Shown here piece after piece: positions 1,447 to 10,009 of a DNA stretch of 64,000 nt (its first letter is position 1; each line of letters opens with the position of its first letter). The position numbers and the translations under genes were made by a program. This DNA comes from a virus: IMG/VR virus record IMGVR_UViG_3300027668_000012, positions 1-64,000 of that record; one strand, given 5' to 3'. The notes beneath the pieces are model-generated. The model saw nothing but the letters and a program-made list of their open reading frames with translations. It searched no databases and was not told where the DNA came from.

Positions 1447-3306
1447 CTATCTAGGAAATCGTAGGCTTTCAGGATGATGTGACTCAGGAGCTGACAGAAA
1501 AACAGCATCACCGATAGCATTGTTATTATTATTTATCACAGGCGCATCAAGTTTAGCTCCATCGTTATTGGCATTAAATTGTGTTAGTTTACTATTGAAT
1601 ATTTCTGCTTTTAGTTTTTCTCGTCGTTCTTTTAATCGGGTAGAAAATTCTTGCTCTAAATCACTATTCAACATATAAGAACCACTTCCAGTCGCTCTAA
1701 CTTTAGCTAATCTCATATCAGCTCGAAGGTCTTTAATGTTATTAATGTCTTTTATGATTTCACGGATATCGCTGGTACTGTTAATTAAATCATTATTATG
1801 TTGTCGTGAATGTGTTAACCCTAATGCTTTTGCAACTCCTTCAGGAAGCCGATCAATGAAATACTGTGGACTTGGAATAAGGTCTTGTATGAAAAGAGCA
1901 AACTTGTTTATCTTTTCCATCATAGTAGTCTTTTCTCTATCCTGTCCATCCTTAGTGAAATTCTTTAAAAGTGCCTCTAATATTGTATTGACAGGAGAAT
2001 ATACTATTTCAAAGGCAACGCCAGCCATACTAGACACATTCTTTCCGAAACCATTCAGTGTCTTCCAGTTATTCCACCATGTAGTCCATGCGGCTTTTGA
2101 TTTAATTTTTTCGTCTTCAGTTCCAGTCCACCCAAGACCAGTTGTTATAGATGTGATTGCCTCACCCGTCTTTTCAAATGGAATTTGAATAAGGTCTTTA
2201 ATTAATTGATTGAAGTCGAGTGTTTCTATTCCACCTAAAATTTTAGTTAATAGGTTTTTATCTTTATTAATAGTAACATTACCATCTTTATCTGTTATTA
2301 AATAATCTTTTGGTAACAGTTTTTTGATAATAAAAATAGGTATATTTTTTAGCACGTTTGCAAACTCTCCAAAGAAAGAGCCAAGAGTTCCGCCTATCAA
2401 ACCACCTGTACCAGCAAATAATTTATCAACAATACCTTGTTCGTCTTCCATCTCTTTTCTGGCGGTTTTAATACCATCAAATACAGAAAGGATTGCGGCA
2501 AGCGGTTTTACAAACCTAACAATGTTTAGCAACATTCTATTATTTTTAATCGCTTCGAATACTGGTTTTAGTTTTTCTATCGCACTTTTTACTGTTTTGG
2601 TAGGCATAACATTTTTAATCATTCTGTTTATGTCACTAAAAAAACGAACTAAGGCACTTTGAGGTTTTTGTTTTTGAGTAAGCGAACTTTCTCTTGCATC
2701 TGCTAAATTAGTGACCTGTCCAAGTTTAACTAGCTCTCCACTCTTTGTTTTCAACCCCCTTGCAATATCACCTGGAGTCACTCGTCTTAAAAAGGGGCTA
2801 AAACGTTTTTCTACCGAATCCTCGATCAACTTAACATTTTTAAAGACTTTATCGTATATGGATTTTCCAGGAGCTACAACAAGGTCTGTTGCTAATCTTG
2901 CTGGCAAGAGGAATAATTTGTTCATACCTTTTGTAAATTTATTTAGATCTTTTATAGAAGGACCTAAACCTTCAGTAGCCAATGCAAACGCTCCAGCAAA
3001 TGCAACAAGCGAACCTATACTACTGAACAAACCTTTAAAAGGATTACCAAATACAGCTAAACTTTTACCATTACTACTACTTCTACTACTAGTGTTCGTA
3101 TCTGGTTTAGGTTGTTTATTTTTCTTATTGGCCTCAAGTAAAGCTTCACGATTCTTTAATGCGTCGCCTTCCATCTTTTCAAGCAACGCTCTTATGGTAC
3201 TAGACAAGTTTTTAACTGCATCTGTTGTGCTGTGTTGTTCTCTTAATTGTTTATCGTTATCAGCACGTAATTTTAATATTACGTCATTGAGTGTTGCATC
3301 AGCCAT
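1447..3306 (-). CDS. tail tape measure protein (gp29 position)
   Basis: 619 residues, close to T4 gp29 (590). The N-terminal ~70 residues are charged and probably coiled coil, followed by a Ser/Asn-rich linker and hydrophobic stretches (about residues 85-115 and 270-350) typical of tape measures that must be ejected through or into the cell envelope. It starts two bases past the end of the frameshift extension of the gp26-type gene, the standard chaperone-then-tape-measure arrangement. Role: sets tail length and templates tube assembly from the hub. Identification rests on size, composition and position, not on a diagnostic motif. Confidence 0.7.
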   Translation of the reverse strand: MADATLNDVILKLRADNDKQLREQHSTTDAVKNLSSTIRALLEKMEGDALKNREALLEANKKNKQPKPDTNTSSRSSSNGKSLAVFGNPFKGLFSSIGSLVAFAGAFALATEGLGPSIKDLNKFTKGMNKLFLLPARLATDLVVAPGKSIYDKVFKNVKLIEDSVEKRFSPFLRRVTPGDIARGLKTKSGELVKLGQVTNLADARESSLTQKQKPQSALVRFFSDINRMIKNVMPTKTVKSAIEKLKPVFEAIKNNRMLLNIVRFVKPLAAILSVFDGIKTARKEMEDEQGIVDKLFAGTGGLIGGTLGSFFGEFANVLKNIPIFIIKKLLPKDYLITDKDGNVTINKDKNLLTKILGGIETLDFNQLIKDLIQIPFEKTGEAITSITTGLGWTGTEDEKIKSKAAWTTWWNNWKTLNGFGKNVSSMAGVAFEIVYSPVNTILEALLKNFTKDGQDREKTTMMEKINKFALFIQDLIPSPQYFIDRLPEGVAKALGLTHSRQHNNDLINSTSDIREIIKDINNIKDLRADMRLAKVRATGSGSYMLNSDLEQEFSTRLKERREKLKAEIFNSKLTQFNANNDGAKLDAPVINNNNNAIGDAVFLSAPESHHPESLRFPR

Positions 3307-3307
3307 G

Positions 3308-3493
3308 TTAGGCGTTCCTTTGTCTTTCTGCTTCTTTTTCTTCTTTCAAATAATCCATTAACATATTCAAGTAGACTTCTCTTTCCCACGGAATCATTAG
3401 TTCTATTTCAGTCAATGAGTAACTATGATGTTGCATCAATTGAAAGTTTGTTCCGTAATAATTCACCAAGTTGTCGTGAGAAAGGCATATTAA
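3308..3493 (-). CDS. -1 frameshift extension of the tail assembly chaperone (gp26 family)
   Basis: A 61-codon frame that lies -1 to the gp26-type gene and is entered directly from its slippery T-run (3492-3499). It has no convincing start: the first ATG comes 20 codons in and lacks a ribosome site. Its product contains MQHHSYSLTEIELMIPWERE and a charged KEEKEAERQR tail, which looks like a real structured domain. It ends at 3308, two bases before the tape measure ATG. This geometry matches the G/GT chaperone genes of other tailed phages. I infer a minor fusion product of about 298 residues. A homopolymer sequencing error is the main alternative. Confidence 0.65.
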   Translation of the reverse strand, partial: LICLSHDNLVNYYGTNFQLMQHHSYSLTEIELMIPWEREVYLNMLMDYLKEEKEAERQRNA

Positions 3494-4203
3494 AAAAAAT
3501 CTGCCAAACCTTCTAAAACAATTTCGTTGGCATGTTTACATTTGTTACAATCGAAATTGACTGTGTGAGATAGTTTAGGCATAGATTCAATGTAGGCACT
3601 TACTTTAGAAAACTGGTCTTTAGTCATAGAGTCAATAAAGTCTGACACTTCTTTTTTTGGTACATCAGATGTCACAATTCTTTCTTCTTCTGTGACGATT
3701 GCACTAATACATTTAGCAATCATTGCAAACGCACCTTCGTTAGCTGATTGTGCATCTGTGATACCCAACTCTAACATATCAGAATACGAAGGCCATTTCA
3801 TTTCTATACTAATTTCATCAGTAATCTTAATGACATGATCAATATCAGGAACATCGATCGTGATACTTGAAATATCTACATCAATCTCGTTATCAACTTC
3901 ACATTCTTTATTAGAACATTTAAGGTTTATTTTGCTACTTTCGCCAACAGACTTTGCTCGTATCTGTGTGAACAAATATTCAATGTCGAATATAGCCAAC
4001 TCTTTCGTACTAATGTCATTCTCAATACAAGCATCGACTGTATCAGCCACGGCATTAAGAATTGCCGTCATGTCTTGTGATTCCATAGCCATCATCATAA
4101 CCTTTTCTTCTTTCACCAAGTAAGGTCTATATCTAATTTTTTGGTTGCTTGAAGGTATAACAAGTTCGTGCTTTGGAGTATCATTCAGTTTTGGTAGTGC
4201 CAT
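3490..4203 (-). CDS. 26: baseplate hub / tail assembly chaperone, gp26 family
   Basis: 237 residues (T4 gp26: 208). The N-terminus (MALPKLN..., then a conserved K/R-Y-R-P-Y-L-V-K-E-E-K block at residues 22-34) is typical of the T4 baseplate family Pfam PF12322. Two Cys pairs, C96/C101 and C219/C222, may bind zinc. The protein ends GLADFF, and the last codons GAT TTT TTT TAA form a T TTT TTT slip heptamer leading into the -1 frame extension. It lies directly upstream of the tape measure, consistent with a chaperone or hub assembly role. Confidence 0.75.
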   Translation of the reverse strand: MALPKLNDTPKHELVIPSSNQKIRYRPYLVKEEKVMMMAMESQDMTAILNAVADTVDACIENDISTKELAIFDIEYLFTQIRAKSVGESSKINLKCSNKECEVDNEIDVDISSITIDVPDIDHVIKITDEISIEMKWPSYSDMLELGITDAQSANEGAFAMIAKCISAIVTEEERIVTSDVPKKEVSDFIDSMTKDQFSKVSAYIESMPKLSHTVNFDCNKCKHANEIVLEGLADFF

Positions 4204-4214
4204 TCAGGTAGTCC

Positions 4215-4922
4215 TCATATATTAGTTAATAATGTGCCAAGTTGTGACGTTATAAAATCACTGTTAGGTGTTGCTTGTCTGCTCTTTGTTATATTGTATT
4301 TAGTGTACGAGAAAGTGACGTTAAACTCAAGTATCTCACCATTAGCATTACCGAGTTCTACACCTGTTATAGTAGTAGGAAAAGCTTCCTCTAAAGAAAC
4401 TTCATACACTACTTTATCGTCCGTAATGAAATCTAAGTCGAATGTTCCTTGTGCAAGATCAAATCCACCTATACTTGGAAGTCTGTTCTGTATTTCTGCT
4501 GGTAACAAAGGCAGTCCCAATGGTGTAGAATACACAGGAAAACCAATACCTTTCTTTAATTGCTGTATCTTAATCTGTTTTGTATATGTGTTCTTATACT
4601 TTATCTGATAAGAGTCTTGATCTACGATTGCGTCTGTCCAAGTATCAAAATAGTTACGCACACCATAATCATTCAGTAAGAAGAAAGTCATAGTAACATC
4701 TTCATACAATTGTCTGTATGCAATTTTTTCCATCTTGTGACCAATTTCTCGATCATACGTAACAACCTGTTTGCCTGGAATATTTACTCTTGAGCATAAC
4801 AAATTTACATCTGTAGAAGTCGCACCGGGAAGTGACGGAAGTATAACTCTGTAGACATTGCCCATTGCAATGCCACCTTTACTAGACATCAATCCTTTTA
4901 ATTGATCTACACTATATGTCAT
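4215..4922 (-). CDS. tail-tube-fold baseplate protein, probable gp54 tube initiator
   Basis: 235 residues with the tail tube fold pattern: an N-terminal strand (NVYRVILPSL), the loop CSRVNIPGKQ, the conserved YEDVTMTFF strand and a following NYFDTWTDA helix, then a closing C-terminal strand (LEFNVTFSYTKY). Families with this fold in T4 are gp19, gp48 and gp54. gp19 and gp48 are assigned elsewhere in this window, so gp54, which nucleates tube polymerisation on the baseplate, is the best fit. It is shorter than T4 gp54 (320). Its start overlaps the end of the gp2-like gene by 4 bases. Confidence 0.6.
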   Translation of the reverse strand: MTYSVDQLKGLMSSKGGIAMGNVYRVILPSLPGATSTDVNLLCSRVNIPGKQVVTYDREIGHKMEKIAYRQLYEDVTMTFFLLNDYGVRNYFDTWTDAIVDQDSYQIKYKNTYTKQIKIQQLKKGIGFPVYSTPLGLPLLPAEIQNRLPSIGGFDLAQGTFDLDFITDDKVVYEVSLEEAFPTTITGVELGNANGEILEFNVTFSYTKYNITKSRQATPNSDFITSQLGTLLTNI

Positions 4923-7815: not shown

Positions 7816-9179
7816 TGAACGCAACAACTAAAAATAAAGCAATGAGTGCTCACGACTATGTATTGCAATCTGCAATCATAACGTCTTCTGTTGATACAAG
7901 CAATACTACAGTTGATATTAAAAACATCATTACTGATATTGACATATATGAACATTTAGATAAGCCGTACATTACAGGCGAAATATTGTTTATTGATGAC
8001 GCAAATGTATACAACTACATTGGATTTTCTGGTGCAGAGTTTATAGAATTGACGTTTAAGTTGCCAGACGAAGAAGCAGTAGCAATAACAAAAAAGTTTG
8101 TCATTGAGGACACAATCAAAAACGTAAGAAGCAATGATAGAACTTCAGCAGTCTTAATTCGTATAGTAGAAGTCCATGCGTTTAATTCTACATTGATTAA
8201 TGTAAACAAGGCGTACCAAGGTAAACCAGTTGATATAGTCCAGAACATCATTCGTGACAATCTAGGTAAAGACTTCTCTGGTCCTGTACAAGCTGACGCT
8301 CAATCGCCTATAAAGGTTCTAATACCAAACATGACGCCTCTACAAGCGGCAAGATGGGTAAATGAAAGAGCAACTACTATTGATGGTGTTCCATATTACT
8401 TCTTTTCGACTTTGGCTAATGATAAACTACATATAATACCTTTAAACTTGATGCTATCAACTAATCCTGATCCTGTGCCATACGTCTATTCACAAATTAC
8501 AACATCAATTGCGGCTTCAAAAGGCATAGAAGAACAAGCACAATTAATTCAAAGCTACACTTCAAAGAGTAATGACGAGATTGTTAGTTTAATACAAAAG
8601 GGTTTAGTCGGCGCACAGTACAAGTTCTATGATCCTACTATTGGTTCTGAAATTAAAAATGGTGGTGTGACACACAACCTAGACGATACTTTACAAGTAC
8701 TAAAGTCTAATCAAATCATAGCAAAAAATCAAAATGTGTTGACGTATTCAAATAACTACAAGTTAAATGAAATACCAGTCGCACAATTAAAATCCAGAGT
8801 CGTTACTAAGGTTGTGATGTCAGATGTATACAATTCTAAGAATAGTTATTCAGAAGCAGTCGATTTATCACAACACAAGTTAAAGGTGACAAACGAGGCG
8901 TTGAGAGAAACTATTATAAGAAATGCAATTGAAGTTATATTACCAGGAAGAAACTTTCTCAATGGTGCATATAGTAACACTATAGGCAATCAAATAACAT
9001 TAAAGTTTTTAGACACGGCAGTTAACCCTAGCAGAGAAGAAGAAAGCTTAGAAGATCAGAAAAAGTCTGGTGATTATCTAATGTATGCAGTCAGACATTC
9101 ATTTAAGAATGAGAGATATGATGTAATTGCTAGTTGTGTAAAACTAGCCGATCTTCCAAGGGAAACAAATATAAAATGA
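7815..9179 (+). CDS. 27: baseplate central hub subunit gp27-like
   Basis: 454 residues (T4 gp27: 391). Beta-rich, with the hub pattern DIDIYEHLDKPYITGEILF (about residues 45-63), a VDIVQNIIRDNL helix and a LQAARWVNERA helix, as in gp27/gpD-type hub proteins. It should form the trimeric torus that the gp5 OB domain plugs into. Its stop overlaps the start of the gp5 gene (ATGA), matching the known partnership. Confidence 0.78.
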   Translation: MNATTKNKAMSAHDYVLQSAIITSSVDTSNTTVDIKNIITDIDIYEHLDKPYITGEILFIDDANVYNYIGFSGAEFIELTFKLPDEEAVAITKKFVIEDTIKNVRSNDRTSAVLIRIVEVHAFNSTLINVNKAYQGKPVDIVQNIIRDNLGKDFSGPVQADAQSPIKVLIPNMTPLQAARWVNERATTIDGVPYYFFSTLANDKLHIIPLNLMLSTNPDPVPYVYSQITTSIAASKGIEEQAQLIQSYTSKSNDEIVSLIQKGLVGAQYKFYDPTIGSEIKNGGVTHNLDDTLQVLKSNQIIAKNQNVLTYSNNYKLNEIPVAQLKSRVVTKVVMSDVYNSKNSYSEAVDLSQHKLKVTNEALRETIIRNAIEVILPGRNFLNGAYSNTIGNQITLKFLDTAVNPSREEESLEDQKKSGDYLMYAVRHSFKNERYDVIASCVKLADLPRETNIK

Positions 9180-10009
9180 CGTGCGATAGTTTTTACGGAG
9201 ATGATATTAATAGGTTCTTTTTTGGGACTATTGTTAATAACAATGATGTTTTTTTATCTTTAGGCAGAGTTCAAATTAGAATTACTGGTATTCACAGTAA
9301 GGACATAAAAAATTCTGATCTTCCTTGGGCATCAGTTGTAGTTCCCACAACAGAACCTGGATTTGGTGGTCATGGATCAAACACTATGTTGGAAACTGGC
9401 GCACAAGTATTTGGTGTGTTCTTAGACGGCACAGATTCACAAGTACCATTAGTCTTAGGTACTATTCCTTCTATAATGCGTCCGTCTAGTGAATGCGAAT
9501 CAGTTTTTTCTGGCGAAACATACCAATTGCCACCTTTAAGACCGCCTGGATTATCTGGTGAATCATTGGTTAGTGACTTAGAAGGTAGTACAAATGCAGA
9601 GAAAAGTTTTAACTTTTTTACAGACCGAGGGTTTACTTTAGAACAAGCTGCTGGACTTGTAGGTAACTTTGCGGCAGAATCAGGTGTCTCTATTAGTCCG
9701 ACTGCATTTAATCCAAGTGATGAAGGTAAAGAAGCCTATGGTATAGCACAGTGGAGAGATACTAGATATACTGATCTTATAAACTATTCTCACGAAATCA
9801 ATAAATCAAAAGATTTGTTATCAACACAGCTTTCATTTGTACTGTATGAGCTTGTAGGAAAAGAGAAAAGGGCTTTGTCTAAAATAAGAGCATCTAGTGG
9901 TGTCGATAACGCCGCAATCACAGTAGATAAATATTATGAAAGAAGCGATGGTTCTGCAAGAGATAAAAGAATTGAACTTGCACGCGAAATCTTTAAGAGG
10001 TTCAAATAA
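9176..10009 (+). CDS. baseplate hub OB-fold plus tail lysozyme (gp5 N-terminal and middle domains)
   Basis: 277 residues from the ATG overlapping the gp27 stop; an upstream in-frame ATG at 9134 is rejected. Residues ~10-100 form a gp5-like OB fold (FFGTIV..., LGRVQIRITGIH, LPWASVVVPTT, GAQVFGVFLDGT). After a Pro-rich linker (119-126) comes a phage tail lysozyme domain (residues ~145-230, NFFTDRGFT, candidate catalytic Glu in NFAAESG at E168, GIAQWRD). T4 gp5 carries its beta-helix on the same chain; here the chain ends after the lysozyme and the helix is encoded two genes downstream. Confidence 0.85.
   Translation: MTCDSFYGDDINRFFFGTIVNNNDVFLSLGRVQIRITGIHSKDIKNSDLPWASVVVPTTEPGFGGHGSNTMLETGAQVFGVFLDGTDSQVPLVLGTIPSIMRPSSECESVFSGETYQLPPLRPPGLSGESLVSDLEGSTNAEKSFNFFTDRGFTLEQAAGLVGNFAAESGVSISPTAFNPSDEGKEAYGIAQWRDTRYTDLINYSHEINKSKDLLSTQLSFVLYELVGKEKRALSKIRASSGVDNAAITVDKYYERSDGSARDKRIELAREIFKRFK

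Follow-up and report, generated by a model that had tools for sequence, protein, structure and literature searches.

The window, which is the whole 64,000-nucleotide stretch analysed here (positions 1 to 64,000 of IMG/VR virus record IMGVR_UViG_3300027668_000012), carries on its minus strand a gp26-type gene (3490-4203) encoding a 237-residue product, the putative short form of a tail assembly chaperone (TAC-N, or G-like). This product matches PF12322 (Pfam, 1.6e-60), phrog_150 (PHROG, 2.7e-62), and T4 gp26, and the gene for the tail tube protein lies just upstream (4215-4922, minus strand; phrog_45, 1e-33). Direct reading of the letters confirmed that the gp26 gene ends GAT TTT TTT TAA, as the first-pass annotation had described, with a run of eight T's at 3492-3499 that holds the slippery heptamer T_TTT_TTT (3493-3499, minus strand) directly against the TAA stop. 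The eight-T run recurs in the near-identical contigs L004-L008, in L009 (92% amino acid identity), and in L011/L012 (57%), so the sequencing error in run length that had been raised against the site is unlikely.

An extension in the -1 frame (3308-3499, minus strand, stop included; T-like, or gp51 C-terminal domain) is open for 63 codons counted from the slip codons, or for 61 counted after the last 0-frame Phe, which is the count originally given. Its peptide reads FFLICLSHDNL...IPWEREVY...ERQRNA, and the long product consists of gp26 plus this extension. The extension stop (3310-3308) is followed by one base, not the two first reported, and then, at 3306, by the start codon (ATG) of the following ORF. 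What had been called a plausible domain is a real one that already has a name, the C-terminal domain of gp51: the extension matches phrog_634, the "baseplate hub assembly catalyst" family that is gp51, at 7.5e-26. A weaker match, to the C-terminus of phrog_150 (6.3e-5), suggests that this family includes some fused members.

The next gene (1447-3306, minus strand, 619 aa) starts one base past the extension stop and is a candidate tape measure gene by its position. Since its product matched no PHROG or Pfam profile, we rejected a profile-based assignment and infer the tape-measure identity from position; the first-pass placement of the extension before the tape measure holds for the adjoining ORF itself, but no profile marks that ORF as a tape measure. 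In a scan for another candidate, covering 21 of the 25 window ORFs of at least 280 aa, none matched the T4 gp29 family phrog_1283. Elsewhere in the window, a "tape measure" PHROG is hit (1.4e-19) by a baseplate hub/lysozyme-like protein (9134-10009), which probably has a domain in common with it. The close spacing is general: at 81 of 84 loci the next ORF starts no more than 30 nt away. The gene that follows the chaperone varies in length, from 619 aa in the window to at least 1166 in S-PM2 (L002:3646-7143) and 529 in P-SSM2 (L003:4356-5942), and also in its domains: the S-PM2 product matches peptidase, endolysin, and tape-measure profiles, and those of P-SSM2 and the window match none.

T4 has two distinct, divergent genes, 26 and 51, and we compared their products with the two parts of the marine locus. 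T4 gp26 aligned with the window gp26 profile over 201 columns, nearly to its own end (GLKEFF; 4.8e-16), and did not match the extension profile (0.73). T4 gp51 matched the gp26 profile weakly (1.5e-5) and, through its residues 205-244, the extension profile (2.2e-5); phrog_150 covers almost all of it, and phrog_634 matches it at 147-246. The marine short form thus resembles T4 gp26, and T4 gp51 resembles the short form plus the extension, the difference being that two separate, divergent T4 genes need no frameshift. From these profile matches T4 appears to carry the short and long chaperone forms as two genes, and the available text of a T4 review places both gp26 and gp51 among the hub assembly chaperones (PMC3004832).

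An AlphaFold2 model of gp26, built with 38 relatives (pLDDT 91.1, pTM 0.84), gave a suggestive structural link. When 918 Foldseek candidates were realigned with VIA-align, the top scores went to three entries placed on gp26 residues 1-96, namely 3fgx (Z 7.8), 2ob9, which is the tail assembly chaperone of HK97 (7.5), and YqbN 3klu (7.0), the next score being 2.6; a Z below 8 can reflect a common arrangement. We take 3fgx and 3klu to be phage chaperones as well. The modelled N-terminal domain of gp26 may therefore resemble the HK97 tail assembly chaperone. By Foldseek alone, 2ob9 had an E of 2.4 and no PDB entry matched below 0.001, and a PDB sequence search with the gp26 profile gave a best E of 0.37. 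Foldseek against viral models returned gp26-type proteins, one of them named "baseplate hub assembly chaperone", and no recognisable independent chaperone family.

To place the slip site in its family, we ran tblastn, which matched gp26 to 635 phage records (at E 1e-3) and the extension to 551 (at E 0.01); among the matches listed (60 of 551), the extension match begins at residue 1, that is, at the slip codons. We assembled 87 junctions, made up of 79 viral-contig loci (L018-L096), the viral contigs L009, L011, L013, and L014, the phage records L001-L003, and the window. The viral-contig sample is the best 80 of 600 matches and so represents the best-matching part of the family. L004-L008 and L017 (near-identical to the window locus), L010 (gp26 truncated where the contig ends), and L012 and L015 (duplicates of L011 and L014) were left out. 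Alignment of the junctions, the check proposed in the first-pass annotation, revealed an in-frame T_TTT_TTN near the gp26 stop in all 87, as TTTTTTC (42 loci), TTTTTTT (38), TTTTTTA (6), or TTTTTTG (1). No codon or one codon separates the heptamer from the stop in 85 of the 87, and three and nine codons do so in the other two. Elsewhere in the same genes, with the last 15 codons excluded, T_TTT_TTN occupies 9 of 19,279 in-frame positions. The codon before the two slip codons specifies Asp, Ser, Asn, or Ala, always with T as its third base, and the first slip Phe is TTT at every locus, whereas TTC makes up 24% of Phe codons elsewhere. A quickly built gp26 tree implies no fewer than 11 changes of the seventh slip base and no fewer than 12 of the slip-to-stop distance, with the hexamer constant. 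Extensions close within the contig at 84 loci, all of them 58-68 codons from the slip; the remaining three are cut off where the contig stops, with over 50 codons open in L021 and L083 and about ten in L019.

Fourteen further annotated records, picked for diversity and counted apart from the 87, extended this pattern. T_TTT_TTN lies in frame before an open -1 frame in 12 of them (phiM7, Ps15, S13, RL2RES, XacN1, SH-Ab 15599, Melnitz-3, Mosig, D483, DSL-LC03, S-WAM1, and S-MbCM7) and is absent from two, Vibrio phage K483 and Acinetobacter phage Lazarus; in Lazarus, 26 and 51 are two distinct genes, each carrying the annotation "tape measure protein assembly chaperone". In Xanthomonas phage XacN1 (L102), T_TTT_TTT precedes the gp26 stop by about ten codons, and the long open -1 frame there is without the PWER motif. 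The suggestion that the slip site is a general feature of the gp26 family therefore holds among the relatives sampled, but not for T4, Lazarus, or K483. Overall, 15 of 18 annotated records have the slip site, and a joined gp26-gp51 product is annotated in none of the 15. In five phage records (L099, L103, L108, L109, and L110) the -1 extension is wholly unannotated.

Selection on the -1 frame was tested only past the gp26 stop, using 374 pairs whose nucleotide identity was 70-99.5%. The first, second, and third codon positions of this frame showed 4954, 2472, and 9110 changes, and pN/pS was 0.22, compared with 0.98 and 2.19 in the other frames; these ratios are approximate, with synonymous changes near saturation and pairs non-independent. 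The proposed check of coding conservation was thus borne out, and the substitution pattern indicates that the -1 frame is under purifying selection.

We also looked for elements that could stimulate slippage, comparing the C1 group (TTTTTTC separated from the stop by one codon, 35 loci) with T0, the slip class of the window (29 loci). Over the 87 loci, the strongest mean pairing to the anti-Shine-Dalgarno sequence was found for the 8-mer starting 15 nt before the slip (-5.8 kcal/mol against a gene background of +0.3). That 8-mer leaves about 9 nt to the slip site, within the 9-14 nt given in the available text of PMC5009743 for a Shine-Dalgarno element acting as a -1 frameshift stimulator. When the genes were recoded synonymously, none of 300 simulations was as strong as the observed Shine-Dalgarno-like excess for all loci (86 distinct), for C1, or for the other 52 loci, where the excess was smaller. 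For T0 the element did not exceed synonymous expectation, 41 of 300 simulations being as strong. The window has AGAAGG 9 nt upstream of the heptamer (3509-3514, minus strand; -4.0 kcal/mol to the anti-Shine-Dalgarno), possibly a weak stimulator.

Downstream of the slip, the 48 nt folded more stably than shuffles in C1 (z -2.30, se 0.32) and, to a lesser degree, in T0 (-1.04, se 0.30, n=28) and the rest (-1.15, se 0.29), and the whole set gave z values of -1.2 to -1.5. Within C1, 15 of 35 loci (L003, L059, L061, L071, L072, L074, L076, L079, L081, L083, L085, L090, L091, L093, and L096) form at least 9 of the 11 pairs of a hairpin starting 5 nt past the slip; as a control, sliding the partner by 1-3 bases left 0 or 1 C1 loci able to form it. 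Thirteen of the 15 also carry GGAGGG about 9 nt upstream. Many of the 15 are close relatives, and L096 has changed on both sides of one pair. S-PM2 (L002) has GGAGGG and a different hairpin at about the same place (z -6.6). The weak TCAC/GTGA stem noted earlier in the window is present (3463-3479, minus strand), but at -3.2 kcal/mol against a shuffle mean of -3.6 it is no better than chance and not credible as a stimulator. Two runs against shuffles (z -0.4 and 0.0) found no downstream structure beyond chance and no credible hairpin in the window, and a window-specific downstream stimulator was rejected because folding there is no better than that of shuffles.

We propose, with high confidence, that the gp26 gene yields a tail assembly chaperone in a short and a long version, a G/GT-like pair whose long form arises by a -1 ribosomal slip. 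The first-pass annotation had offered such a reading, and the slip site, the selection on the -1 frame, and the homology to T4 gp26 and gp51 all support it. Most ribosomes would stop at TAA and release the 237-residue short form, and a minority would move one base backwards on U_UUU_UUU and go on to translate the 61-residue gp51-type domain; both Phe anticodons could re-pair after the slip, with the stop codon directly ahead. By analogy with lambda G/GT, from which the binding roles are taken (available text of PMC5009743), binding to the tape measure protein would fall to the short form, and the long form would in addition bring in subunits of the tail tube. Slippage itself, its ribosomal nature, its efficiency, and the partners of each form are predictions.

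The same fusion protein would result if RNA polymerase slipped on the eight-T run and made messages one U longer or two U's shorter. A run of eight T's is indeed present in the window and in 33 of 87 loci, but 49 of 87 have six T's only (42 T6C, 6 T6A, and 1 T6G) and still keep the extension, and one clade adds a Shine-Dalgarno-like element, often with a hairpin, which are known ribosomal stimulators; we consider transcriptional slippage very unlikely. We find it scarcely credible that the -1 frame is a chance opening or a decayed remnant: 31 of 5000 dinucleotide shuffles of the extension's 180 nt kept the frame open, so 63 open codons can arise by chance, but the family-wide purifying selection and the profile matches speak against it.

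Many records annotate the extension as a separate small gene, gp51, and it could in principle have its own start, coupled to the gp26 stop. An in-frame ATG does lie 0-20 nt past the slip start in 28 of 87 loci; in 27 of them, all from C1, it stands 5 nt beyond the first stop-codon base, and S-PM2 and P-SSM2 annotate gp51 from that ATG. Slip site and a -1 frame ATG overlapping the stop occur together in phiM7 (L097), Ps15 (L098), RL2RES (L101), and D483 (L107), so both routes to the extension are possible in these phages, and in Vibrio phage K483 (L100), without T_TTT_TTN, the overlap at the gp26 stop (TAATG; stop at 3080-3082) suggests coupling in place of slippage. Against this, 27 of 87 loci have no ATG, GTG, or TTG in the open -1 frame up to extension codon 18, ahead of the conserved block, though the region is conserved; in 12 of these 27 the -1 frame is also closed within 3 nt upstream of the slip, which leaves the slip as the only plain entry. 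The first -1 frame starts in the window, a TTG and a GTG 23 and 26 nt beyond the first base of the stop codon, would drop the conserved LICLSHDN. Coupling leaves the invariant T_TTT_TTN unexplained, and the C1 ATG lies about 24 nt from the Shine-Dalgarno-like element, too far for normal initiation. At the early-ATG loci separate initiation may add to slippage, but as an account of the family a separate gene seems to us highly improbable.

For the family as a whole, we offer a broader and tentative proposal, which may well prove wrong: that one chaperone family keeps a fixed slippery hexamer and has repeatedly rebuilt the rest of its recoding signal. The nearly bare U7-8 run at the stop, as in the window, and the dnaX-like combination of Shine-Dalgarno element, U_UUU_UUC, and hairpin in one cyanophage-type clade would then be alternative ways to one short-to-long ratio, T4 would have switched to gene duplication, and some Vibrio phages perhaps to stop-start coupling. 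With its varied slip signals for a single product, the family is a natural series in which to ask how phages tune frameshift efficiency.

Vladimirov and colleagues are said to have found, in 2022, that frameshifting is seemingly conserved in several T4-like groups, with T4 itself using genes 26 and 51. The genes concerned, named TAC-N and TAC-NC, we take to be those of gp26 and gp51. Available text of PMC12846349 (2025, citing Vladimirov, Gautam and Davidson 2022, Virology 566:9-15, a study also cited in that of PMC12671138) describes poly-T slippery sequences in the TAC-N genes of T4-like phages, a likeness to the site described here, and that of PMC10885494, citing the same study, describes some T4-like phages with separate short and fused long chaperone genes instead. 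In 2016, the available text of PMC5009743 had called G-T frameshifting widely conserved among long-tailed phages "except T4". The first-pass view that such a frameshift was not established for the T4 gp26 family, and perhaps overlooked, was thus largely wrong: because poly-T TAC-N sites had been reported (available text of PMC12846349), the marine locus is a further, well-supported example of a recognised type, and taken singly it adds one more case to a published prediction. Taken together, the results indicate that a marine T4-like phage very probably makes a long tail-building helper protein by a ribosomal slip on a run of T's, which is mostly not new. They link the marine-phage counterparts of two classic T4 "baseplate hub" genes with chaperoning of the tape measure, and they show that the long protein is missing as an annotated product from all 15 slip-site records. 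New relative to the literature searched, which was mostly open access and yielded no title or abstract describing such a signal, is the clade-specific Shine-Dalgarno-like element with its frequent hairpin.

The -1 signal of Escherichia coli dnaX consists of a Shine-Dalgarno element, a slip site, and a hairpin. Unlike dnaX, the window has the slip site and a weak Shine-Dalgarno-like sequence with no credible hairpin, whereas one cyanophage-type clade shares the dnaX layout, with a Shine-Dalgarno-like element, T_TTT_TTC, and, in 15 of 35 loci, the hairpin. The lambda slip site differs from T_TTT_TTT, and the ratio of short to long form has been measured for lambda gpG/gpGT, whereas the marine pair is predicted. 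In both systems a short chaperone and its -1 extended form would act on the tape measure, as the available text of PMC5009743 describes for lambda.
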